Positions 3,016-42,026 of a DNA stretch of 46,194 nt are shown here, one piece after another. Below the pieces are notes generated by a model. The model was given only the letters and a program-made list of their open reading frames with translations. It did not search any database and was not told where the DNA came from. Every line of letters begins with the position of its first letter. Within the stretch, counting starts at the first letter, position 1. This DNA comes from Candidatus Peribacter sp. (GTDB taxonomy: Bacteria > Patescibacteriota > Gracilibacteria > Peribacterales > Peribacteraceae): the NCBI GenBank assembly GCA_030647195.1, contig JAUSKD010000015.1, forward strand, positions 1-46,194, in the 5' to 3' direction. A program made the translations under genes and the position numbers.

Positions 3016-3185
3016 CCTCGTTGAGGCTCGTATCAGCCTGTTTCTTTTTGTCAGGGGACTTAGGGAACCTTGTTCGGTTCCCTCAGCCCCCCGACACCCC
3101 CCTCACCCTCCTAACCCAAACTGGGAGGCAAACCTGCGGGTTTTCCTCCCCTCCGGTCCCTCCTTTCCATTTGGTTTTGTCTTTG
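3016..3185. repeat. Compound hairpin/G-quadruplex repeat, copy 1
   Basis: About 170 bp, nearly identical in order to 29077-29245 and 41831-42026. In order: CCTCGTT and a TCGTAT box, TTTCTTT, a hairpin GGGAACC-TTGTTC-GGTTCCC (about 3063-3082), a C-run block (3080-3117, G-runs on the minus strand), CCTAACCCAAACTGGG, a second hairpin around AAACCTGCGGGTTTTCC, then CTCCGGTCCCTCC and a T/G-rich tail. It lies between convergent maf and the IMPase gene. It encodes nothing. Confidence 0.85.
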
Positions 3186-3190
3186 TTTTG

Positions 3191-9800: not shown

Positions 9801-10733
9801 CTAGGCTTTGGAAAGCTCTAAAACGTGGCCCTTGATGACCTTCAGAACGCTATCTAAATCCTCGTTGACAAGGATATGGTCGAACAGGTGAGCAGCGCGC
9901 GTGAAGTAGTCCAAATCCGCCTGTGCGTTCAAGAGCCGTTCCTCGATCTGGGCATCCGTCTCACGACCGCGTGCGCGCATTCTATGCAGAAGATGGCTGA
10001 GCATGGCGCGCTTGCTCGCCCCCGGGGGCAGCAGCCCGAATGAGAGGATGGAGCGTCGTCCGAAGTGCCCCGCGAGTCCCTGTAGAAGCTGCATTTCCGT
10101 CACCACGACCGGGAGCTTGCCCTGTTCCCAGATCGCCTCGATATCGTTCTTGCGATAGCCGTAGGAGCGTTGTTCCGATTCGGAGGGCAGATGGGTCCAG
10201 GCGACGAGCGCTCCGCTCTTCTCCAATCGCTCGAATTCCCTGGTGGAGACGTAGTCGTACTCCTGATCGTCGCCTTCTTTCGGAGTACGGCTTGTGACGA
10301 TGGGTACCTTGGTCGTGAAGTCGCTGAGCATCTTCGTTAAGAGCAGCGAGACCGTGGTCTTGCCCACGCCCGACGGACCCGTGAGTGCGAGGATGTAGCC
10401 GGGAAATTCTTTCGTTTCGGATGCGGTTTCTGCCATGCGCTCCGTGAGTTCGTAGACGACTTCGTAGAGACGAAGCCCCTCCGCATTCACACGGCTCAGA
10501 TGCATCCGGGGGATCACCACCTGCCCGATCTTCGGTTCGGCGGAGCCTGACAGCGCGCCGAGCACGCGGTGGCCATCGGTGAGTTCGATCAGGCCGATCT
10601 GGCGCGGGCGATCCGGAAACCCCTTGGGAGGATGGGTGACGGTTGTGAACGAGAGCAGCGTGCCCGGCAACAGGCGCGCTTTTTGACGCGTCAGGGAGCG
10701 TGCGGCGACGGCGGGGGAGTCAGGCGTGCGCAT
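9801..10733 (-). CDS. DUF35 OB-fold domain fused to guanylate-kinase-like P-loop kinase
   Basis: 310 residues from ATG 10733 (MRTPDSPAVAAR), overlapping the thiolase 3' end by 14 nt. Residues ~22-95 match the OB-fold of DUF35 proteins: PGTLLSFTTVTHPPKGF, IGLIELTDGHRVLGAL, EPKIGQVVIP. The Cys-rich zinc ribbon that normally precedes it is missing. Residues ~112-310 are guanylate-kinase-like: P-loop GPSGVGKTT at ~119-127, TSRTPKEGDD, SYGYRKNDIE, and the C-terminal DHILVNEDLD. Several GMP-binding positions are altered relative to E. coli Gmk (FLE to LVA, YGT to YGY, DI to TE), so the substrate is open. In archaea a DUF35 protein holds thiolase and HMG-CoA synthase in one complex; here those two genes lie directly upstream. 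The frame is open upstream to 10838, but that part overlaps thiolase codons. Confidence 0.85.
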   Translation of the reverse strand: MRTPDSPAVAARSLTRQKARLLPGTLLSFTTVTHPPKGFPDRPRQIGLIELTDGHRVLGALSGSAEPKIGQVVIPRMHLSRVNAEGLRLYEVVYELTERMAETASETKEFPGYILALTGPSGVGKTTVSLLLTKMLSDFTTKVPIVTSRTPKEGDDQEYDYVSTREFERLEKSGALVAWTHLPSESEQRSYGYRKNDIEAIWEQGKLPVVVTEMQLLQGLAGHFGRRSILSFGLLPPGASKRAMLSHLLHRMRARGRETDAQIEERLLNAQADLDYFTRAAHLFDHILVNEDLDSVLKVIKGHVLELSKA

Positions 10734-11877
10734 GAGGAGAGTGCTGAAGAATGTGTACGCAGCAGGTGGCGCCGACGCCGCCGAAATTGTGGGCGAGGCC
10801 GTAGCGTTTTCCAGAGGCCTGCAGTTGCTTACTGACATCGATGATTTGTTTGATGCCCGTCGCCGCGACCGGATGTCCGCAGGCCTTCAATCCTCCGCTG
10901 GCGTTCACCGTCATGGGTGTGTTCTGCTCGTACCACCGGATTCCTTCACCGCTCTCCGCGAATCCCATGTCTTCCAGCGCGATGAGAGCGGCGACGGAGA
11001 AGCAGTCGTGCAGTTCCACGTGTGCGATGTCGCTCGTCGCACAATCCGCCTCGTCCAGTGCACGTTGCATGGAATCTTTGGTCGCGGAGAACGAGGTGAG
11101 GACCGGCCGATCGGCGATGCTTAAGGCATCGGTGCTCGTTTGGGAGGCGGCAATGCGCATAGGGGAGTGGTGTTTGGTGGAGAGGATGCAGGCGGCAGCT
11201 CCGTCACTGATAGGAGAGCAGTCCAGAAGCCGCAGGGGATCCGCCACGAGCGCACTCGCGCCGATCTGCTCCGGGGTCATCTCCTGCCTGAACTGCGCGA
11301 AAGGATTCTTGAGGGCGTTTAAGTGATGTCGGGCACTCACGAGATTGAGTTGGCTGCGCGAAAGTCCGAATTCATGCATATAGCGGCGCGCTACAAGCCC
11401 AAAAAGTCCGGGGAACGTCAGGCCGCAGGGGGCGTCTTTTTCGCTGTCTGCTGCGCCCATGAGTGCGGTGGTGATCTCATCGCCCGAAGCGTCGGTCATC
11501 TTCTCGGCACCGACGACCAAAACGGTCTCGGCGCGTCCGCTCTCGAGCAAGGCACAGGCGGTGTGCACCGCGATCGATCCCGAGGCGCAAGCCGCCTCCA
11601 CACGCAGGGCGGGAGGATGATGCGGGAGCAGGGAGGAGGCGACGGCACCCAGATGTGCCTGTCCGTTCACGGATTCGGCCAGCATGTTGGCCACGATGAT
11701 GAAGTCGATATCCAGCGCCGAGCAGGGGGCAGACAGAATTGCACTGTCCACTGCCTCTTCGATGAGGGTGAAGAGACTCTTGCCCCACCACTCCCCGAAT
11801 TTGGTCTGGCCGATTCCAATAAGCGAGATGTCCTTTTGCATGGAATGTCTGGAGGATTCTACACGGTCTTCCGCCAT
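10720..11877 (-). CDS. Archaeal-type thiolase (acetyl-CoA acetyltransferase)
   Basis: 385 residues from ATG 11877, which shares its A with the TGA of HMG-CoA synthase (translational coupling). A second candidate start is ATG 11841 (MQKDISLIGIGQTKFGE), which matches the usual family N-terminus better. Nucleophile Cys at about residue 97 in EAACASGS; C-terminal ACGHPVAATG and NFGGVG supply the remaining active-site and oxyanion residues. The sequence is of the archaeal/SCP2-like branch that condenses two acetyl-CoA to acetoacetyl-CoA as part of a thiolase/HMG-CoA synthase/DUF35 complex. Gene order synthase, thiolase, DUF35 supports that reading. Confidence 0.9.
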   Translation of the reverse strand: MAEDRVESSRHSMQKDISLIGIGQTKFGEWWGKSLFTLIEEAVDSAILSAPCSALDIDFIIVANMLAESVNGQAHLGAVASSLLPHHPPALRVEAACASGSIAVHTACALLESGRAETVLVVGAEKMTDASGDEITTALMGAADSEKDAPCGLTFPGLFGLVARRYMHEFGLSRSQLNLVSARHHLNALKNPFAQFRQEMTPEQIGASALVADPLRLLDCSPISDGAAACILSTKHHSPMRIAASQTSTDALSIADRPVLTSFSATKDSMQRALDEADCATSDIAHVELHDCFSVAALIALEDMGFAESGEGIRWYEQNTPMTVNASGGLKACGHPVAATGIKQIIDVSKQLQASGKRYGLAHNFGGVGATCCVHILQHSPHAHA

Positions 11878-12917
11878 CACGAAACCGGTGTTTTCTCGGA
11901 ATTTCTGCGGTATTCCCCGTAGGAAATGTAGTGAAGTTGTCGCTCGTCTACGGGCAGAACGGGGGCATCCCGGAGCATGGTCAGCAGGAAGGCATCGGCC
12001 CCCGCACCCGAGCCGTACGAGACGAGCAGAATTTTCTGGTGCTTTTTGGCTTGCTGCAGCACGTGTACGAGTCCGAGCAGGGAGCAGGCGCTGTAGGTAT
12101 TGCCGATCACGGGCACGATGAACCCGGCCTGCATCTGCTCTTTGCTGATCTTGAATTCCTTTGCGATCTTTCCCGGAAACTTGGCATTGGGCATGTGCAG
12201 GACGACATGATCGATGTCGCTCAATTTCGTCTTCGTCACGTCGAGGATGCCGGTGAGTGCCTGACGGACGTGCAGGAAGTATCCCGGTTCCCCCGTGAAA
12301 CGTCCCGCGTGGGCGGGATAGGGCGCCTCTGCGGTGCGCCAGAAATCAGGTGTGTCTGTCGTGAACGAGATCGTGTGTTCGATGCGACAGAAGGCATGCT
12401 CGGAACTCTCGGATCCCACAATGATTGCCGCCGCCCCAGCAGCAGCCGTGTATTCCAGTGCGTCCCCGGGCTTCGCCTGAGCCTTATCGGTGCCGATGGC
12501 CATTCCATAGGTGATCTGTCCGCTCCGGACGAACGCATCCACGATTTGCAGCCCGGCGGTCCCCGCCTTGCAGGCGAACTCCAGATCCGCGCAGAACGAG
12601 AAGGGGTGCAGGTCGAGGGCGGCTGCCAGCATGCCGCTCGTGGGTTTGACCGCGTAGGGGTGACTTTCAGAACCGGCGAAGATGGCCGAGATCTCGGAAG
12701 AGCGGATGCCTGCGGTTGCGATGGCCTGTGTTCCGGCCTCGAACGCGAGTGTGAAGCTGTCTTCGTCGGCACCCGCGACTGCTTTTTCTGTTACGCCCAG
12801 CCCATTGATGATTTCCTTCGGGTCACGTCCCCAGTGTTTCGCGATCTCCTCGACCGTGATGCGGTTATTTGGGATGTACATGCCGAAGCCGACGATGGCG
12901 GAATGGGGAGAGGGCAT
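11877..12917 (-). CDS. Hydroxymethylglutaryl-CoA synthase, archaeal type
   Basis: 346 residues, the length of archaeal HMG-CoA synthases (the eukaryotic and Gram-positive types are longer). Opens MPSPHSAIVGFGMYIPNNRI. The catalytic Glu is in AGSESHPYAVKPTSG (about 84), the nucleophile Cys in DLEFACKAGTAG (about 116), and the His in HVVLHMPNAKFP. It condenses acetyl-CoA with acetoacetyl-CoA to HMG-CoA. Stop and thiolase start overlap as TGATG. A TATACT box (12929-12934) lies 11 nt before the ATG. Confidence 0.93.
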   Translation of the reverse strand: MPSPHSAIVGFGMYIPNNRITVEEIAKHWGRDPKEIINGLGVTEKAVAGADEDSFTLAFEAGTQAIATAGIRSSEISAIFAGSESHPYAVKPTSGMLAAALDLHPFSFCADLEFACKAGTAGLQIVDAFVRSGQITYGMAIGTDKAQAKPGDALEYTAAAGAAAIIVGSESSEHAFCRIEHTISFTTDTPDFWRTAEAPYPAHAGRFTGEPGYFLHVRQALTGILDVTKTKLSDIDHVVLHMPNAKFPGKIAKEFKISKEQMQAGFIVPVIGNTYSACSLLGLVHVLQQAKKHQKILLVSYGSGAGADAFLLTMLRDAPVLPVDERQLHYISYGEYRRNSEKTPVS

Positions 12918-13049: not shown

Positions 13050-14210
13050 TTACCGGGCGAGTTTTTTGTGCGAAGAAGCCAGCGTCTGTGTTGCCTGCGC
13101 CGCAAGCAGGCTCAATTCACCTGCAAGGACGGCCGCGCCGATTGTTTCCGCGAGTTGCTGTGGAACCCGGAGGCTCGTTTTTGCCCTCAGCATAAGCGAA
13201 AGGCACTGATTTTGGGCAGGCAGGGCCGTTCCGCCGCCCCGTACACCGACGAGGATGGCGGGCAGGCGCGTTTGCATGACAATGCCGTCCTTCGCAGACG
13301 AAACATTGGTATCCGCCAGCGATCCTTCCACCACGTGAGCGGCGTCCTGACCCGTTGCCAGATAGAGGGCTGCGATCACATTGGCGGCATGTAAATTACT
13401 GCCGATGGCTCCCGCGATTTCCGATCCCACGCGGAGTTTGGCATCGGCCACGGCGAGCAGGTGTTCGGGGGTTGTCTTCAGTATTTCTTTGATAACGGAG
13501 GAGGGGATCACAGCACTCGCGGTCACCTCGAACCCGCGGCCGCGGTCGTGCGTGCGCTTACTCGGCTTCTTGTCGCTGTCGACGTTCGCTGCGATGGTGA
13601 TGAGATCGGCATCAAGCTCTTGAGCAAGGAAATCCCCGATGGCCTGCGCGGCAATCGTCGTCATGTTCATGCCCATGGCCTCCGATGTGTCACAGAAAAT
13701 CGTGAGGAACGTGTAGCCATCAGATTCATCCACGTCGTAGCGGAGAATTTTGAGATGTCCGCTCGTCTCCTCGCCGATTTTCTTCCACTCAGCCTCCGTT
13801 GCCTTGATCGTGGTGGTGTACGATTGTCCTTTCCCTGTTTTCGGCTTCAGAACGATCGATCGGGACATGCCATGGTAGACGGATTCAACCGCAACACCCC
13901 CGATTGTCGAAAGAACTTTGCATCCGCGACTGACGCTTGCGACCAGAGCAGCTTCGGTCGTGGCGAGCGGAAGAAATACATCTGCTTTTTCGCCGGAGCT
14001 GAAGGTGATCGCGAGCGGCCCGGCAATTCCAACCGGAAGCGGCACGGAGCCGATCATTTGCTCGCAGTTCTTCTCGTCGGCCTGACCGATGTGTTTGTCG
14101 TCCGTGTGTAAGATCGAAAGATCCACGCCCAATTCCGCTTCAACGCGCGCTCTTCGCTCATCGCAGCGCTGTTCCGCATTGAGGCCGGAAGGGAGATTTC
14201 GGAGATCCAT
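13050..14210 (-). CDS. Hydroxymethylglutaryl-CoA reductase, class I
   Basis: 386 residues from the preferred start at 14210 (MDLRNLPSGLNAEQR). Soluble catalytic domain only, with no N-terminal membrane segments. Class I motifs: CEQMIGSVPLPVGIAGP, LATTEAALVASVSRG (catalytic Glu), SEAMGMNM (NADP(H)-site), DSDKKPSKR (catalytic Lys), and GVRGGGTALPAQ in place of the common GTVGGGT. It reduces HMG-CoA to mevalonate with two NADPH. Upstream ATGs at 14240 and 14219 are in frame, but the TACAAT box (14218-14223) ends 7 nt before 14210, favouring a leaderless start there. Confidence 0.95.
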   Translation of the reverse strand: MDLRNLPSGLNAEQRCDERRARVEAELGVDLSILHTDDKHIGQADEKNCEQMIGSVPLPVGIAGPLAITFSSGEKADVFLPLATTEAALVASVSRGCKVLSTIGGVAVESVYHGMSRSIVLKPKTGKGQSYTTTIKATEAEWKKIGEETSGHLKILRYDVDESDGYTFLTIFCDTSEAMGMNMTTIAAQAIGDFLAQELDADLITIAANVDSDKKPSKRTHDRGRGFEVTASAVIPSSVIKEILKTTPEHLLAVADAKLRVGSEIAGAIGSNLHAANVIAALYLATGQDAAHVVEGSLADTNVSSAKDGIVMQTRLPAILVGVRGGGTALPAQNQCLSLMLRAKTSLRVPQQLAETIGAAVLAGELSLLAAQATQTLASSHKKLAR

Positions 14211-14217
14211 CGGATTC

Positions 14218-14223
14218 ATTGTA
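14218..14223 (-). promoter_or_regulatory. -10 box (TACAAT) of HMG-CoA reductase
   Basis: TACAAT on the minus strand followed by 7 nt and ATG (14210). The same TACAAT-7-ATG arrangement precedes the GT4 gene at 43173. A palindrome immediately upstream could terminate the decarboxylase transcript. Confidence 0.5.
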
Positions 14224-14255
14224 CCGTAGCCGGGGTTCATGAACCCCGGCTGCCG
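14224..14255. repeat. 32-bp palindromic element, copy 1
   Basis: Left half CCGTAGCCGGGGTTCA, right half TGAACCCCGGCTGCCG; the inner 24 bp are a perfect palindrome. Same frame and ends as the palindrome at 27486-27517 (left half CCGTAGCTGGGATTCG). It lies in the 47-nt gap between the decarboxylase and HMG-CoA reductase. Confidence 0.7.
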
Positions 14256-14257
14256 AT

Positions 14258-15268
14258 TTATTCAACCAAACATGCCCCCGGGCCCACTTTCGTTTCGAAG
14301 ATTGTGCATCCCTTCTGTGCGTGGGCGAAGGAGAGAACGGCTGATCTGCCCTCTTCTGGACACACAAGGTGGACTGTTGGTCCCGCATCCATGGTGAAGA
14401 GCACGGGCAGATGCGCCTTTGTGCGCAATGCTTTGATGGCATCGACGATCCGATGCGTTTCTGCGTTGAGGTAGTGCAGAGGAGGAGTGGAGGTCTCCAT
14501 CACATGATGCATATCGAGGCAGTCCTCCTCCGTCACGCGCTGAAGGGCTTCGAAATCTTTTTTTCGGATCGCCTCGATGCACTCCCGCTGGCGACGTGAG
14601 CGGATGGATTTCACGCGTTCGGCATAGAAAGGGCTGGTGGAAGCCAATGCATGGCCCTCCGTGGAACCCACCTTCTTTTCGTCCATTGCGGGGATCACAA
14701 CGATGTCATGGAGGAGCCAGTGATGTTCGTCGGCGATCTGCTCGCTCCAGGAGCCCCCGATTTCCATACCGCCTCCTTCCTCGAGTGTCGAAAAGCCGCC
14801 GAAGATGCTGCGTGCGGCGGAGCCCGATCCGAGGCGCGCAAGGATACTCACCTGTTTGTCTGTGAGCTCCTTTTTCTCACGGATGAATCCGGCGATCGCT
14901 TTTGCGAGGCAGCTGAAGACGGCAGCAGAGGAGGCAAGACCCACTGCAGGTGGAATGTGGGAACGCACGGTGATCAGGAGGTTCTCGGACAGTGCATTTG
15001 CCGCTCCCAGCGTGTCCAGATACCGCTGCATCAGTGCGAGGACTTTCCGAAAGCGCTCGATGTCTTTTTCTTTCAGTGTTTTCTCAGATCCGTCTGCGAG
15101 AAAGGAACGAACCGCAAACGCATCCGCTTCTTCCACGGTGATTTCGACCGTCGGCCGGTCCAGTGTCATCGAGAGCGAGGGGGCCATGGGCAGCCGCAGA
15201 TCCTCGGAGCGATTACCCCAGTACTTGATGAAGGCGATATTGGGCGTGGAACGGGCGGTCGAAGGCAT
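14258..15268 (-). CDS. Mevalonate diphosphate (or phosphate) decarboxylase
   Basis: 336 residues, GHMP superfamily. N-terminal STPNIAFIKYWGNRSEDLRL corresponds to the APxNIAxxKYWGKR motif; the P-loop-like PPAVGLASSAAV is near residue 115 and SGSAARSIFGGF near 155; TMDAGPTVHLV near the C-terminus holds the D-A-G-P motif. It produces IPP from mevalonate diphosphate by ATP-dependent decarboxylation. The N in KYWGNR, instead of K, is shared as I recall with Chloroflexi enzymes that use mevalonate monophosphate, so substrate should be tested. The start at 15268 lies 6 nt after a TACCCT box; an in-frame GTG at 15283 is the alternative. Confidence 0.88.
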   Translation of the reverse strand: MPSTARSTPNIAFIKYWGNRSEDLRLPMAPSLSMTLDRPTVEITVEEADAFAVRSFLADGSEKTLKEKDIERFRKVLALMQRYLDTLGAANALSENLLITVRSHIPPAVGLASSAAVFSCLAKAIAGFIREKKELTDKQVSILARLGSGSAARSIFGGFSTLEEGGGMEIGGSWSEQIADEHHWLLHDIVVIPAMDEKKVGSTEGHALASTSPFYAERVKSIRSRRQRECIEAIRKKDFEALQRVTEEDCLDMHHVMETSTPPLHYLNAETHRIVDAIKALRTKAHLPVLFTMDAGPTVHLVCPEEGRSAVLSFAHAQKGCTIFETKVGPGACLVE

Positions 15269-15274
15269 GGGAAG

Positions 15275-15280
15275 AGGGTA
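15275..15280 (-). promoter_or_regulatory. -10-like box (TACCCT) of the decarboxylase
   Basis: Minus-strand TACCCT, 6 nt before ATG 15268; same hexamer as the ruvB promoter. Divergent from the HAD gene promoter. Confidence 0.4.
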
Positions 15281-15287
15281 CACGTTA

Positions 15288-15325: not shown

Positions 15326-16186
15326 ATGGAACTCCAGGAAATCAACTGTGTGCTCCTCGATAAAGACGGCGTTCTGATGAACGGAAACACTGTTCTTCCC
15401 GGTGCACAGGAATTTGTCGAGCAGGCGCGAAAGAACAGCATGCCGACCACCATTCTCTCCAATACATCGCGGCTCACCGGGCAGGCTCTCGCGCGCGTCA
15501 TCCGTGAAAAAATCGGCGTCAGTGACCTCAAAGATGAAGAAGTGGTCACTGCGGTGGATGTCACCATGCAGTACCTGAGAGAGCACCCGTCCCGCGAACG
15601 TCCGGAAGATGTGCTCCTGCATGTTGTCGGGGAGGACGGATTCATCGAGGCAATGCAGGATGCGGGGTTCGCCGTCGCAAATGATCAGTGGAAGAACGGG
15701 AACTGGGCAGTACTGCCCACCGATGTCGTCAACGGTTTGGATACCCACAGTACGTACGAAAAACTCGCACCTGCATGGAATGCGGTGCGGCTCGGTGCGC
15801 GGCTTATCTCAGTCAACAGCGACCGCTCCTACCGTTCTGCATCGGGGGCGGAATTGCCGGCAGCCGGTGCACAGTTGGCCTATTTGGCGACGGCGAAGGA
15901 GAACGGCCGGCCGGATATCGTCCTCGGCAAGCCGAATGTCGAAATTGCAGAGGTTGCCCTGGGGCGTATGCATCTTTCGAAAACAACCGCGCGCATCGCG
16001 GTAATCGGCGACAATCTCCGTGAAGACATGGGCCTCGCCACTCAGCTGAATGATGCGGGATGGAAGGCGGAAGGCTGGATGATGCTCACTGGCGTGACCG
16101 CGAAGGACCAGTGCAATCATGCCGCCATCAGTCGCGTCTTTATGGATTTGCGGGAGACCATGAAGGCGCTCTTCTCACAGAGATGA
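15326..16186 (+). CDS. HAD-superfamily (type IIA, NagD-like) hydrolase
   Basis: 286 residues. Motif I CVLLDKDGVLMNG with nucleophile and acid Asp at about residues 11 and 13; motif II TILSNTS; motif III Lys in IVLGKPNVEIAE; motif IV IAVIGDNLREDMGLA. The long insert between motifs II and III is the C2-type cap of subclass IIA (NagD, phosphoglycolate and pNPP phosphatases). It stands alone on the plus strand inside the minus-strand isoprenoid cluster, divergent from the decarboxylase and overlapping the 3' end of mevalonate kinase by 12 nt. The substrate is unknown; a phosphorylated isoprenoid precursor is only a guess from position. Confidence 0.85.
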   Translation: MELQEINCVLLDKDGVLMNGNTVLPGAQEFVEQARKNSMPTTILSNTSRLTGQALARVIREKIGVSDLKDEEVVTAVDVTMQYLREHPSRERPEDVLLHVVGEDGFIEAMQDAGFAVANDQWKNGNWAVLPTDVVNGLDTHSTYEKLAPAWNAVRLGARLISVNSDRSYRSASGAELPAAGAQLAYLATAKENGRPDIVLGKPNVEIAEVALGRMHLSKTTARIAVIGDNLREDMGLATQLNDAGWKAEGWMMLTGVTAKDQCNHAAISRVFMDLRETMKALFSQR

Positions 16187-17050
16187 CGCAGAGAGCGGCA
16201 GCATACTTTGTGCACTCTTCCGAATCACCGGCCGGATGAGATCCGGATTTTTATGAAGTGCCAGCACGGTGCCTCCGCCTCCTGACTTTCCCCCTGCCCC
16301 GAGCACCTTGGCGGCTCCGCCCAGACGCTCAATCTCTTTGATGAGGACCTGCACGGGCTTGGGAACGACGCCCAGAGCCACCTGCGACTTGTGATGATCG
16401 CGAAAGACCGTACGGATATCCTCGCCTTTGCGCAGGCGCTCCGTACATTTGCCGATAGCAATCAGGGCCTGCTTCACGCGCGGATCGTCTGTCCGTTCCT
16501 TTACCCACTGAACAAGCTCGGGTGTTGTTTGATCGGGCGTGCCGGTATCGACCAGGAGCGCGCCGCGCAGTAGATCCGATGGTACCGTGATGACCTGCGG
16601 CTCCTGTCCTTTGCGGAAGTAGAGCGGCTTCTCCTCCCAGATCACCGCGAAGTCGATGCCGCTGTGGCCGGGGTTCATCGCATCTTCGATTGCCAGCGCT
16701 TCAGCGCGCTTCTGCGGACCCAAAAGGATTCGCGTGAGGGCGATCACGAGGGCGGTTGAGGAGCCCATTCCTTTCTTCAGTGGCAGATGATTGCGGATTG
16801 TCAGCGTTCCGCGGAAGGACAGTGCTGCATTCTGCTCAAGATGCAGGATGATCTTGCGGGCGTAATCCTCCCACACTTCCCCGCCGCTGATGCCAAGCCA
16901 TTTGAGTGTGAGAGCACGACTCGCGGCGTTCTCTTCAAAAGTGGCCTGCATGGCGAGCGGAGCGGGCACCGCGATGCCGGGATGGCCGAAGACCACGGCG
17001 TACTCGCCGGTGAGAATGATCTTGCCGTGTGCGACGGCCGTGTGCTTCAT
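16175..17050 (-). CDS. Mevalonate kinase (GHMP family)
   Basis: 291 residues. N-terminal HGKIILTGEYAVVFGHPGIA is the mevalonate kinase-type motif 1; LPLKKGMGSSTALVIALTR (about residues 90-108) is the ATP-binding P-x3-G-x-G-S-S loop; NPGHSGIDFAV carries the substrate/catalytic Asp region; KVLGAGGKSGGGG is motif 3. It phosphorylates mevalonate to 5-phosphomevalonate. A phosphomevalonate kinase role cannot be wholly excluded in the GHMP family, but the motif 1 pattern favours mevalonate. The ATG overlaps the uppS stop as ATGA. The 3' end overlaps the HAD gene, convergent. Confidence 0.9.
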   Translation of the reverse strand: MKHTAVAHGKIILTGEYAVVFGHPGIAVPAPLAMQATFEENAASRALTLKWLGISGGEVWEDYARKIILHLEQNAALSFRGTLTIRNHLPLKKGMGSSTALVIALTRILLGPQKRAEALAIEDAMNPGHSGIDFAVIWEEKPLYFRKGQEPQVITVPSDLLRGALLVDTGTPDQTTPELVQWVKERTDDPRVKQALIAIGKCTERLRKGEDIRTVFRDHHKSQVALGVVPKPVQVLIKEIERLGGAAKVLGAGGKSGGGGTVLALHKNPDLIRPVIRKSAQSMLPLSASSL

Positions 17051-17757
17051 CCTCCAAACCGTCTGGAACGCTTGGCGAAGCCATCAACGGCTTCCTTCAG
17101 ATCATCCGTCGTGAAATCGGGGAAGAGCTTGTCCAAAAACACCCACTCGGCGTACGGACTCTGCCAGAGGAAGAAGTTACTCGTTCGTTGTTCCCCGCTC
17201 GTGCGGATGATCAGGTCCAAGTCCTGCAGCTCCGGGTGATCCAGGTTTTCCCGAATGGGATCGGAGCTGATAGCTTGTAGCTTGTAGCTTGTAGCTTGAT
17301 TCTGGTTGAGGATTTTCTCGACCGCACGTTCGATCTCATCCTTGCCGCCGTAATCGATTGCGAGGTGCAGAGTGAAATCGGAAAAGTGCTTCGTTTCCTC
17401 CTCAATCGTCCGGATGAGTACCGAGAGGGAAGCGGGGATGCGGTCCTTGCGTCCCGAGTGGAGCAGCCGCGTGCTTTTCTGTTGGAAGGTGGGACGCTCT
17501 TTCTGAAGATAGTTCTCAAATATGGTCATGAGCTTTGCGACTTCCTGCGGATCGCGCTTCCAGTTCTCGGTCGAGAAGCACCAGACCGTCAGCACGGCGA
17601 TGCGCGGATCGGCCTGACACCAGTCCGTGATCGTGCGGAAGTTCTCAACGGCCTTCTCGTGCCCCTGCCAGGGGTGCCAGGCGCGCGCACGTGCCCAGCG
17701 GCGGTTGCCGTCGGGGATGATGGCGATGTGGAGGGCGTTTGGTTGCTTGGGAGTCAT
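17047..17757 (-). CDS. uppS: Isoprenyl (undecaprenyl-type) diphosphate synthase
   Basis: 236 residues from ATG 17757 (MTPKQPNALHIAIIPDGNRR). The catalytic Asp is in IIPDGNRRWARA; VWCFSTENWKR, LHLAIDYGGKDEIERA and LIIRTSGEQRTSNFFLWQ are the remaining cis-prenyltransferase motifs. It condenses IPP units onto an allylic diphosphate to make the lipid carrier for wall glycans. Between YGGKDEIERAVEKIL and the RTSGE motif there is an extra segment, NQNQATSYKLQAISSDP, encoded by an AGCT-rich repeat (17264-17299) like those in spacers. The frame is open upstream to 17895 but that overlaps idi. Confidence 0.93.
   Translation of the reverse strand: MTPKQPNALHIAIIPDGNRRWARARAWHPWQGHEKAVENFRTITDWCQADPRIAVLTVWCFSTENWKRDPQEVAKLMTIFENYLQKERPTFQQKSTRLLHSGRKDRIPASLSVLIRTIEEETKHFSDFTLHLAIDYGGKDEIERAVEKILNQNQATSYKLQAISSDPIRENLDHPELQDLDLIIRTSGEQRTSNFFLWQSPYAEWVFLDKLFPDFTTDDLKEAVDGFAKRSRRFGG
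17264..17299. repeat. AGCTTGT tandem tract inside uppS
   Basis: GAGCTGATAGCTTGTAGCTT continuing with two more AGCTTGT-type units. Same kind of sequence as the spacer tracts at 7122 and 17770, but here within a reading frame and keeping it open. Confidence 0.7.
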
Positions 17758-17769
17758 GAGAATAGAGAG

Positions 17770-17796
17770 AGCTGTTAGCTGTGAGCTTTCAGCTTT
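17770..17796. repeat. AGCT-rich tract covering the idi stop codon
   Basis: AGCTGTTAGCTGTGAGCTTT then CAGCTTT. It supplies the last residues (PKLKAHS) and the TAA stop of idi, and lies in the short gap before uppS. Confidence 0.6.
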
Positions 17797-18314
17797 GGGG
17801 GATGCATGATCATCGGCAGGGCCAGATGAAACCACGGCGCGTAGAGGAGGGGACGCATGTGCATCTCTTTCGTGAGCTCTTCCGTAGAGATCCACTTCAC
17901 CGCGTTCACCTCGGCGGGGTCGGCCTTCAGGGGCGGGTTCCCCGTGACGGTCCCCGTGAGGATCGTGTCGTACTCGTACTCGGTGCCACGCCCGGCGGGG
18001 TCTTCGGCGCGGTAGACGAAGGAGGCCACTTCTTTGAGCGGGCAGGTGAAGCCGAGTTCCTGATAGAGGCGGAGTTGAGCCGCATCGGGGAGCATTTCGC
18101 TTTCCTGCAGGTGACTGCAGCAGGTGTTGGCCCAGATCAGGGGGAACAGTGTCTTCTCTTTGCTTCGTTGTTGGATCAGCAGCTCTTGTCTTCCTTTCCG
18201 GAACACGAATACGGAGAACGCGCGGTGCAGCATGCCGGGCGATGCATGTGCGGCCTCGCGTTCAGCGGCCCCCATGGGGGTGCCGTCTTCGGTAGTGAGG
18301 AGGACCAAACTCAT
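17775..18314 (-). CDS. idi: Isopentenyl-diphosphate delta-isomerase, type 1
   Basis: 179 residues from ATG 18314 (MSLVLLTTEDGTPMGAAERE). NUDIX fold enzyme interconverting IPP and DMAPP. Catalytic Cys in ANTCCSHLQESE (about residue 68) and catalytic Glu/metal ligands in GTEYEYDTILTG; the Nudix-like helix lies in AAQLRLYQELGF. An in-frame TTG at 18335 would add seven residues but the ATG gives the family N-terminus. First gene of the idi-uppS-mevalonate kinase transcript. The C-terminus is encoded by an AGCT repeat that also provides the stop. Confidence 0.93.
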   Translation of the reverse strand: MSLVLLTTEDGTPMGAAEREAAHASPGMLHRAFSVFVFRKGRQELLIQQRSKEKTLFPLIWANTCCSHLQESEMLPDAAQLRLYQELGFTCPLKEVASFVYRAEDPAGRGTEYEYDTILTGTVTGNPPLKADPAEVNAVKWISTEELTKEMHMRPLLYAPWFHLALPMIMHPPKLKAHS

Positions 18315-18404
18315 GAGCTCAGCATGGCTTTCCAACGCCGTGCGATCAAGGAAATCCTCTTCATCTCTTGGGCCATATCTGCCATAAAAGTGAAGGGATT
18401 GGCG

Positions 18405-28936: not shown

Positions 28937-29076
28937 AAGAAAGAGGGAGTGCGGGGAGAAGAAAGTAAGGGGTGAGCCATGCCCGCACGAGCCATGACGT
29001 CAGCTTCAGCTTCCCATTCCGGGCTTAATGAGTCAAGAAAACAGGCCTTTTTGAGGAAATAGCAGAGGAACCCTTT

Positions 29077-29245
29077 CCTCGTTCAACGTCGTATGAATAA
29101 ATTTCTTTTGTCAGGGGGCTTAAGGAACCTTGTTCGGTTCCCTCAGCCCCCCGACACCCCCGTCACCCTCCTAACCCAAACCGGGCGGGAAACCTGCGGG
29201 TTTCCCTCCCCTCCGGTCCCTCCTTTCCAGCCGGTTTTGTTTCTG
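29077..29245. repeat. Compound hairpin/G-quadruplex repeat, copy 2
   Basis: Same order of blocks as copy 1: CCTCGTT, CGTATGAAT, TTTCTTTTGTCAGGGGGCTT, hairpin GGAACC-TTGTTC-GGTTCC, C-runs (29140-29177), a hairpin GGGAAACCTGCGGGTTTCCC, CTCCGGTCCCTCC. It lies downstream of the TraC-like gene and upstream of rpsA (both minus strand). Confidence 0.85.
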
Positions 29246-29276
29246 TGTGTTTTCATATTTCCGTTCAAAAAAATTA

Positions 29277-41791: not shown

Positions 41792-41830
41792 TGGCTTTCC
41801 ACCTTTGTCGCGACAACGCAGGGATCACTT

Positions 41831-42026
41831 CCTCGTTGGCTTTCGTATGAATCTGTTTCTTTCGTCAGGGGACTTAGGGAACCTTGTTCGCCTGCCTGCC
41901 GGCAGGCAGGGTTCCCTCAGCCCCCCGACACCCCCCTCACCCTCCTAACCCAAACTGGGCGGGAAACCTGCGGGTTTCCCTCCCCTCCAGTCCCTCCCTT
42001 CCAATCGGTTATGTGTGTGTGTTTTG
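41831..42026. repeat. Compound hairpin/G-quadruplex repeat, copy 3, with nested palindrome
   Basis: Blocks as in copies 1 and 2: CCTCGTT, TTTCGTATGAATC, TTTCTTTCGTCAGGGGACTT, GGGAACCTTGTTC, then an extra 20-bp palindrome (41891-41910, half-site CCTGCCTGCC) in the hairpin loop, GTTCCC, C-runs (41914-41951), GGGAAACCTGCGGGTTTCCC, and CCAGTCCCTCC. It lies between convergent ruvB and the GT4 gene. Confidence 0.85.

Follow-up and report, generated by a model that had tools for sequence, protein, structure and literature searches.

The mevalonate gene cluster of Candidatus Peribacter sp. contains a gene in which an OB-fold of the DUF35 kind is followed by a guanylate-kinase-like (GK) domain, and this raises the question of what a kinase of this type does beside the first enzymes of the pathway. 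The stretch of DNA that was analyzed (the window) comprises positions 1 to 46,194 (46,194 nucleotides) of contig JAUSKD010000015.1 in assembly GCA_030647195.1. The window genome (G000) is 1.35 Mb in size and 98.6% complete, and named records place it in the Peribacteraceae, which are tiny uncultured groundwater bacteria of the CPR. In a 2016 study, Peribacteria were found to have the genes leading to mevalonate-5P and those from mevalonate-5PP onward, and the pathway was described as "near-complete" (PMC4736985). The features of the locus are as follows.

9801-10733, minus strand: fusion coding sequence (310 amino acids; ATG at 10733, stop at 9801), DUF35-type OB-fold plus guanylate-kinase-like kinase
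10425-10733, minus strand: fusion residues 1-103, N-terminal helix (residues 7-19) followed by a DUF35-type OB-fold of five strands that lacks the zinc ribbon
9804-10409, minus strand: fusion residues 109-310, GK domain that has lost the guanine contacts but retains the ATP and phosphate sites
10353-10379, minus strand: P-loop GPSGVGKTT of the fusion, residues 119-127
10720-11880, minus strand: acetoacetyl-CoA thiolase, archaeal PRK06064-like
11877-12917, minus strand: HMG-CoA synthase, archaeal type (TIGR00748 above cut-off)
13050-14240, minus strand: HMG-CoA reductase
14258-15283, minus strand: diphosphomevalonate decarboxylase (TIGR01240 above cut-off)
15326-16186, plus strand: HAD-IIA family hydrolase within the cluster
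16175-17050, minus strand: mevalonate kinase (MVK, GHMP), Glu/Asp pair of mevalonate kinases retained
17047-17895, minus strand: undecaprenyl diphosphate synthase (TIGR00055 above cut-off), true start probably further in
17775-18335, minus strand: isopentenyl-diphosphate isomerase type 1 (TIGR02150 above cut-off)

A two-domain protein of the Peribacteraceae

Both Pfam domains lie in one reading frame, with scores of 38.4 bits for OB_ChsH2_C/DUF35 (PF01796; cut-off, 27.1) and 52.1 bits for Guanylate_kin (PF00625; cut-off, 25.2). A first-pass annotation of this DNA had described the gene as a DUF35 OB-fold without its zinc ribbon joined to a GK-like kinase, with a start that overlaps the thiolase gene, itself coupled to HMG-CoA synthase. 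This description is confirmed in each part; the overlap between fusion start and thiolase stop is 14 nt (10720-10733), and that between the thiolase and HMG-CoA synthase open reading frames is 4 nt (11877-11880). The annotation had also named an assembly error or frameshift at 9801-10733 as a way in which the fusion could prove illusory. That explanation was ruled out by the occurrence of the same two-domain protein in 48 further genomes of the family, at identities of about 44 to 88%, and by its constant neighbor: in all 48 genomes in which the thiolase could be placed, it was directly upstream of the fusion on the same strand, and the two genes overlapped or abutted in 23 of these.

The whole fusion was present in 49 of the 57 Peribacteraceae genomes examined, and the search of other families in its class and of a phylum sample (380 genomes) gave no full-length copy. 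Among the matches listed from a scan of the genomes of 84,980 species, which leaves out near records and is not a census, and from the 380 phylum genomes, the full-length fusions belonged only to Peribacteraceae, plus one record (54% identity) that is assigned to Kaiserbacteria by its title alone. No description of the fusion, or of a phosphomevalonate kinase (PMK) derived from guanylate kinase, was found in the open-access literature.

HMG-CoA reductase was detected in 48 of the 49 genomes with the full fusion, the exception being G172, a 70-contig assembly in which the fusion is present and the reductase was not found. Seven family genomes lacking the fusion had neither HMG-CoA reductase nor a GHMP kinase above cut-off. 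Another genome, G017, has no mevalonate pathway genes, yet it encodes a GK-like protein with 49% identity to the fusion and no OB-fold. This stand-alone relative (L043:5498-6256) is located near a secY-like gene, and a normal gmk is also present in that genome.

Within the cluster of the window, the gene for the HAD-IIA hydrolase (15326-16186) overlaps the mevalonate kinase gene on the opposite strand, and the same position is kept in the congener G127. The window also contains a dispersed repeat of ∼141 nt in three copies between open reading frames (3046-3186, 29066-29246, and 41820-42020); the latter two have 91% and 75% identity to the first, and the repeat had no Rfam match.

In the archaeal complex described in PMC12329534, a DUF35 subunit links thiolase to HMG-CoA synthase. 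When a profile was built from 42 copies of fusion residues 1 to 103, its top match among all PDB sequences was the DUF35 subunit of 6ESQ (E value, 1.6e-7), which is the archaeal thiolase/HMG-CoA synthase complex with DUF35. The same protein was the best structural match of the predicted OB-fold (Z, 11.3; 93 residues; 2.4 Å), and the ten best fold matches were all DUF35-type proteins, with a clear gap below them. Both the Pfam score and the fold matches place this part of the fusion in PF01796 (DUF35/ChsH2 OB-fold). Like the archaeal subunit, it is an OB-fold with an N-terminal helix, and it is encoded beside a thiolase and an HMG-CoA synthase of archaeal type. Unlike the archaeal subunit, it has no zinc ribbon (there is no Cys motif, and helix 7-19 runs directly into the OB barrel), it carries a C-terminal kinase, and it occurs in CPR bacteria. 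None of the 26 fusion genomes tested had a PF01796 domain other than this OB-fold, and the search found no such domain in eight family genomes without a mevalonate pathway. By homology with the archaeal complex, to which the first-pass annotation had also pointed, we infer that the OB-fold of the fusion serves as a DUF35 scaffold for thiolase and HMG-CoA synthase, to which it would bind.

The phosphomevalonate kinase step

In agreement with the earlier remark that the cluster lacks a recognizable PMK, the only GHMP kinases in the window genome were MVK and the diphosphomevalonate decarboxylase (MVD). A third GHMP kinase was not found in 43 of the 49 fusion genomes. The family and structure matches listed for the fusion included no animal-type PMK, a result still compatible with distant kinship.

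The enzymes on either side of the PMK step could be assigned. The Glu/Asp pair of mevalonate kinases is catalytic, and both residues were kept in all 34 copies of the resident MVK that were read. The closest solved relative of this protein is the mevalonate kinase 2x7i, although its score in the curated model was below the cut-off (91 versus 163). The decarboxylase scored 204.8 with the diphosphomevalonate decarboxylase model TIGR01240 (cut-off, 171) and 109 with the phosphomevalonate decarboxylase model MvaD (cut-off, 475), and therefore mevalonate 5-diphosphate is the expected intermediate.

Two other routes were considered and rejected. The MEP pathway was rejected as the isoprenoid route because no DXR was detected in the window genome and none scored above cut-off in the 26 fusion genomes tested. 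A route via isopentenyl phosphate kinase has no candidate in the window genome, since its amino-acid-kinase-fold proteins are only UMP kinase, aspartokinase, and an acetylglutamate-kinase-like protein. An isopentenyl-phosphate-kinase-like gene (L052:9646-10266; 71 bits versus a cut-off of 120) is part of the mevalonate cluster of G138, a genome from a different family within the class, and hints that the steps beyond mevalonate 5-phosphate differ there.

Conservation and decay of the GK domain

The structure predicted for the fusion had a mean pLDDT of 86. Its GK domain adopts the fold of guanylate kinase (Z, 24.8 over 186 residues), including the P-loop and the lid arginines, rather than the GHMP kinase fold of the PMKs in TIGR01220, and it best matched closed, ligand-bound guanylate kinases (Z, 24 to 25). 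With the guanylate kinase model TIGR03263, the fusion scored 81.4 bits, below the cut-off of 160.45, as did the resident gmk (121.8).

Residues were compared in 42 reference copies of the fusion according to the numbering of yeast GUK1 (1GKY), with 31 separate gmks of the same family as the control; the guanine, phosphate, and ATP contacts of GUK1 are presumed to mark the roles of these positions. K14, Y50, Y78, R131, R135, and R146 were kept in 42 of 42 copies and R38 in 41, and R41 was replaced by Lys in 36. The guanine contacts were replaced in every copy (S34 by Pro; E69 by Ala, Ser, or Thr; S80 by Tyr; and D100 by Glu). In the control, S34 and E69 were intact in 31 of 31 sequences, and R38, R41, Y50, and Y78 were likewise intact. 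The GPSGVGKTT loop and altered GMP-contact positions noted at first pass are confirmed. The fusion shares with guanylate kinase (TIGR03263; 1GKY) the fold, the P-loop, the lid arginines, and the phosphate-binding residues, but it differs in the four replaced residues, in a six-residue insertion before the lid, and in its attachment to an OB-fold, with the true gmk located elsewhere in the genome. Judged from sequence, this is the pattern of a putatively active kinase that takes a phosphorylated substrate but not guanine.

Six fusion genomes (G137, G154, G168, G184, G275, and G281) provide a natural experiment because they have an extra GHMP kinase, which is encoded beside HMG-CoA reductase and accompanied by a divergent decarboxylase. 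In five of the six, the GK domain has lost three to six of seven key residues, whereas at most one was changed in each of the 43 other genomes (Fisher P = 3e-6, with kinship ignored). The copy in G168, for example, has the substitutions K14R, R38C, Y50T, and R146S. The OB-fold was kept in all of the decayed copies. In the thiolase phylogeny, these copies fall in two clades with fully supported branches between them, and the domain has therefore decayed independently at least twice. G154 has the extra kinase yet an intact GK domain; the extra kinase was not seen in either of its sister genomes, and thus the gain may be recent. In G269 (L048:1-420), a divergent decarboxylase gene adjoins that of HMG-CoA reductase with no extra kinase between, and thus the divergent type does not always accompany the extra kinase.

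Overall, the extra kinase resembles archaeal mevalonate kinases, and curated models name it mevalonate kinase rather than PMK. However, the glutamate of MVK is absent (Val in all five copies read), a GSGFD motif is present, and the best solved match of this region is Lin0012, a phosphomevalonate kinase from Listeria. Considered with the loss of GK residues, these traits suggest that the active site of the GK domain is released once a genome has gained a PMK-like GHMP kinase.

Proposed role and alternative explanations

The explanation that we favor, at a probability of roughly three in four, is that the fusion combines a pathway scaffold with a PMK derived from guanylate kinase, which converts mevalonate 5-phosphate to mevalonate 5-diphosphate and thereby fills the gap in the pathway of the published Peribacteria genomes. 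The basis for this reading is the domain content, the conservation and loss of residues, the co-occurrence with the pathway, the failure of the models searched to reveal another candidate, and the decay of the GK domain in genomes with the extra kinase. From these observations, we infer the PMK chemistry, the binding of thiolase and HMG-CoA synthase, and any benefit of tethering. The OB-fold would dock on thiolase/HMG-CoA synthase, and the remodeled base pocket of the guanylate kinase would permit ATP-dependent phosphorylation of mevalonate 5-phosphate. ATP would be bound via the P-loop and lid, R38, K41, Y50, and Y78 would grip the 5-phosphate of the substrate, and the mevalonate 5-diphosphate produced would be used by the decarboxylase. 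Candidates for the residues that take the place of the guanine contacts are Y193, R189, R226, and E213 of the fusion.

The proposed enzyme is unrelated to GHMP-type PMKs. It would share its reaction with the bacterial GHMP enzyme MvaK2 (TIGR01220) but not its fold, and GHMP PMKs are absent from most fusion genomes (a PMK-like one in six, with the GK domain decayed in five). That an NMP-kinase fold can carry out the step is known from human PMK, a P-loop NMP kinase (PMC4823745). Compared with animal PMK (human PMVK, NMP kinase family), the fusion would have the same reaction and likewise a P-loop NMP-kinase fold rather than a GHMP one, but its GK domain derives from guanylate kinase and is fused to a scaffold domain. 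We lean, with less assurance than for the reading above, toward a wider picture of a GK-derived class of PMK built into a DUF35 scaffold, so that the first two enzymes and the second kinase of the pathway are on one assembly, with GHMP kinases having taken over more than once and left pseudo-kinase scaffolds behind.

If the PMK reading is correct, it closes the missing step of a pathway that has been described as near-complete in Peribacteria since 2016 and adds another independent invention of PMK, here from guanylate kinase. The fusion would also illustrate how a nucleotide kinase can switch substrate by losing its base contacts and keeping its phosphate grip, with the decayed GK domains of genomes that acquired a GHMP kinase as the evolutionary control. 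Furthermore, it would add a kinase to a complex hitherto regarded as a channel formed by two enzymes, and pathway assembly in these small cells would become open to direct tests with expressed proteins. Several observations count against the PMK reading: the proline at S34, the GK-like protein in G017 without the pathway, the six fusion genomes in which no second gmk was found, the intact GK domain of G154 despite its extra kinase, the naming of the extra kinase as MVK by curated models, and the fusion in G172 without HMG-CoA reductase.

The strongest rival is that the GK domain is a protein- or phosphopeptide-binding module, as in MAGUKs, that only extends the DUF35 scaffold. Replacement of S34 by proline converts yeast guanylate kinase (Guk1) into a protein-binding domain (PMC4325336, PMC3335814), and proline occupies this hinge position in 42 of 42 fusion copies, although a one-residue insertion beside it makes the exact alignment there uncertain. 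As in MAGUKs, the GK fold is part of a scaffold protein and apparently no longer uses GMP. However, MAGUK GK domains bind neither ATP nor GMP, and their greatest divergence is in the LID, where the ATP-binding residues are located (PMC3335814), whereas in the fusion the P-loop Lys and R131, R135, and R146 are invariant in the 42 copies and are lost only where the extra GHMP kinase is present. The match of the predicted model to closed, ligand-bound guanylate kinases also speaks against a MAGUK-like role, which would leave the PMK step unfilled. Thus, such a role seems unlikely.

It is quite improbable that the order of the two kinases is swapped, with mevalonate 5-phosphate made from mevalonate by the GK domain and the PMK step left to the resident GHMP "MVK". 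The low score of the resident MVK and the naming of the extra kinase of decayed genomes as mevalonate kinase speak for this order, but the resident enzyme keeps the MVK Glu/Asp pair and has a mevalonate kinase as its closest solved relative, the extra kinase lacks the MVK Glu, and the phosphate-acceptor residues R38, Y50, and Y78 of the GK domain suit a phosphorylated substrate.

That the fusion is an ordinary GMP kinase relocated by fusion, one of two possibilities raised at first pass, is very unlikely. Its fold is that of guanylate kinase, and no separate gmk was found in six fusion genomes (G127, G137, G196, G204, G254, and G258); in G127, the single contig lacks the entire 2.5-kb stretch around gmk, and thus some fusion copies might still serve GMP. 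However, the search for another canonical gmk that the annotation had proposed showed that the window genome and most relatives encode a gmk apart from the fusion, with its GMP contacts intact. Furthermore, the guanine contacts are changed in all fusion copies, the fusion gene tracks the mevalonate pathway and not nucleotide metabolism, and its TIGR03263 score is about 81 versus a cut-off of 160, which the resident gmk also misses (122). Together with the PMK gap, these results favor the other possibility raised, namely that the kinase phosphorylates an intermediate of the mevalonate pathway.

The least probable explanation is that the GK domain phosphorylates some other small phosphate compound needed alongside the pathway, such as isopentenyl phosphate, for which no kinase was found in the window genome; only the phosphate-acceptor residues are conserved, and the rest of the substrate is not given by the sequence, but the decarboxylase scores call for mevalonate 5-diphosphate and the extra kinase of decayed genomes belongs to the MVK/PMK family.

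The gmk of the window genome has an in-frame palindromic insertion of 39 nt (13 amino acids; L001:788-826, contig C23) that the other family gmks compared do not have. The palindrome matches several other sites in G260 at 87 to 94%. In-frame palindromic elements are known in Rickettsia, and the 39-nt palindrome resembles them.
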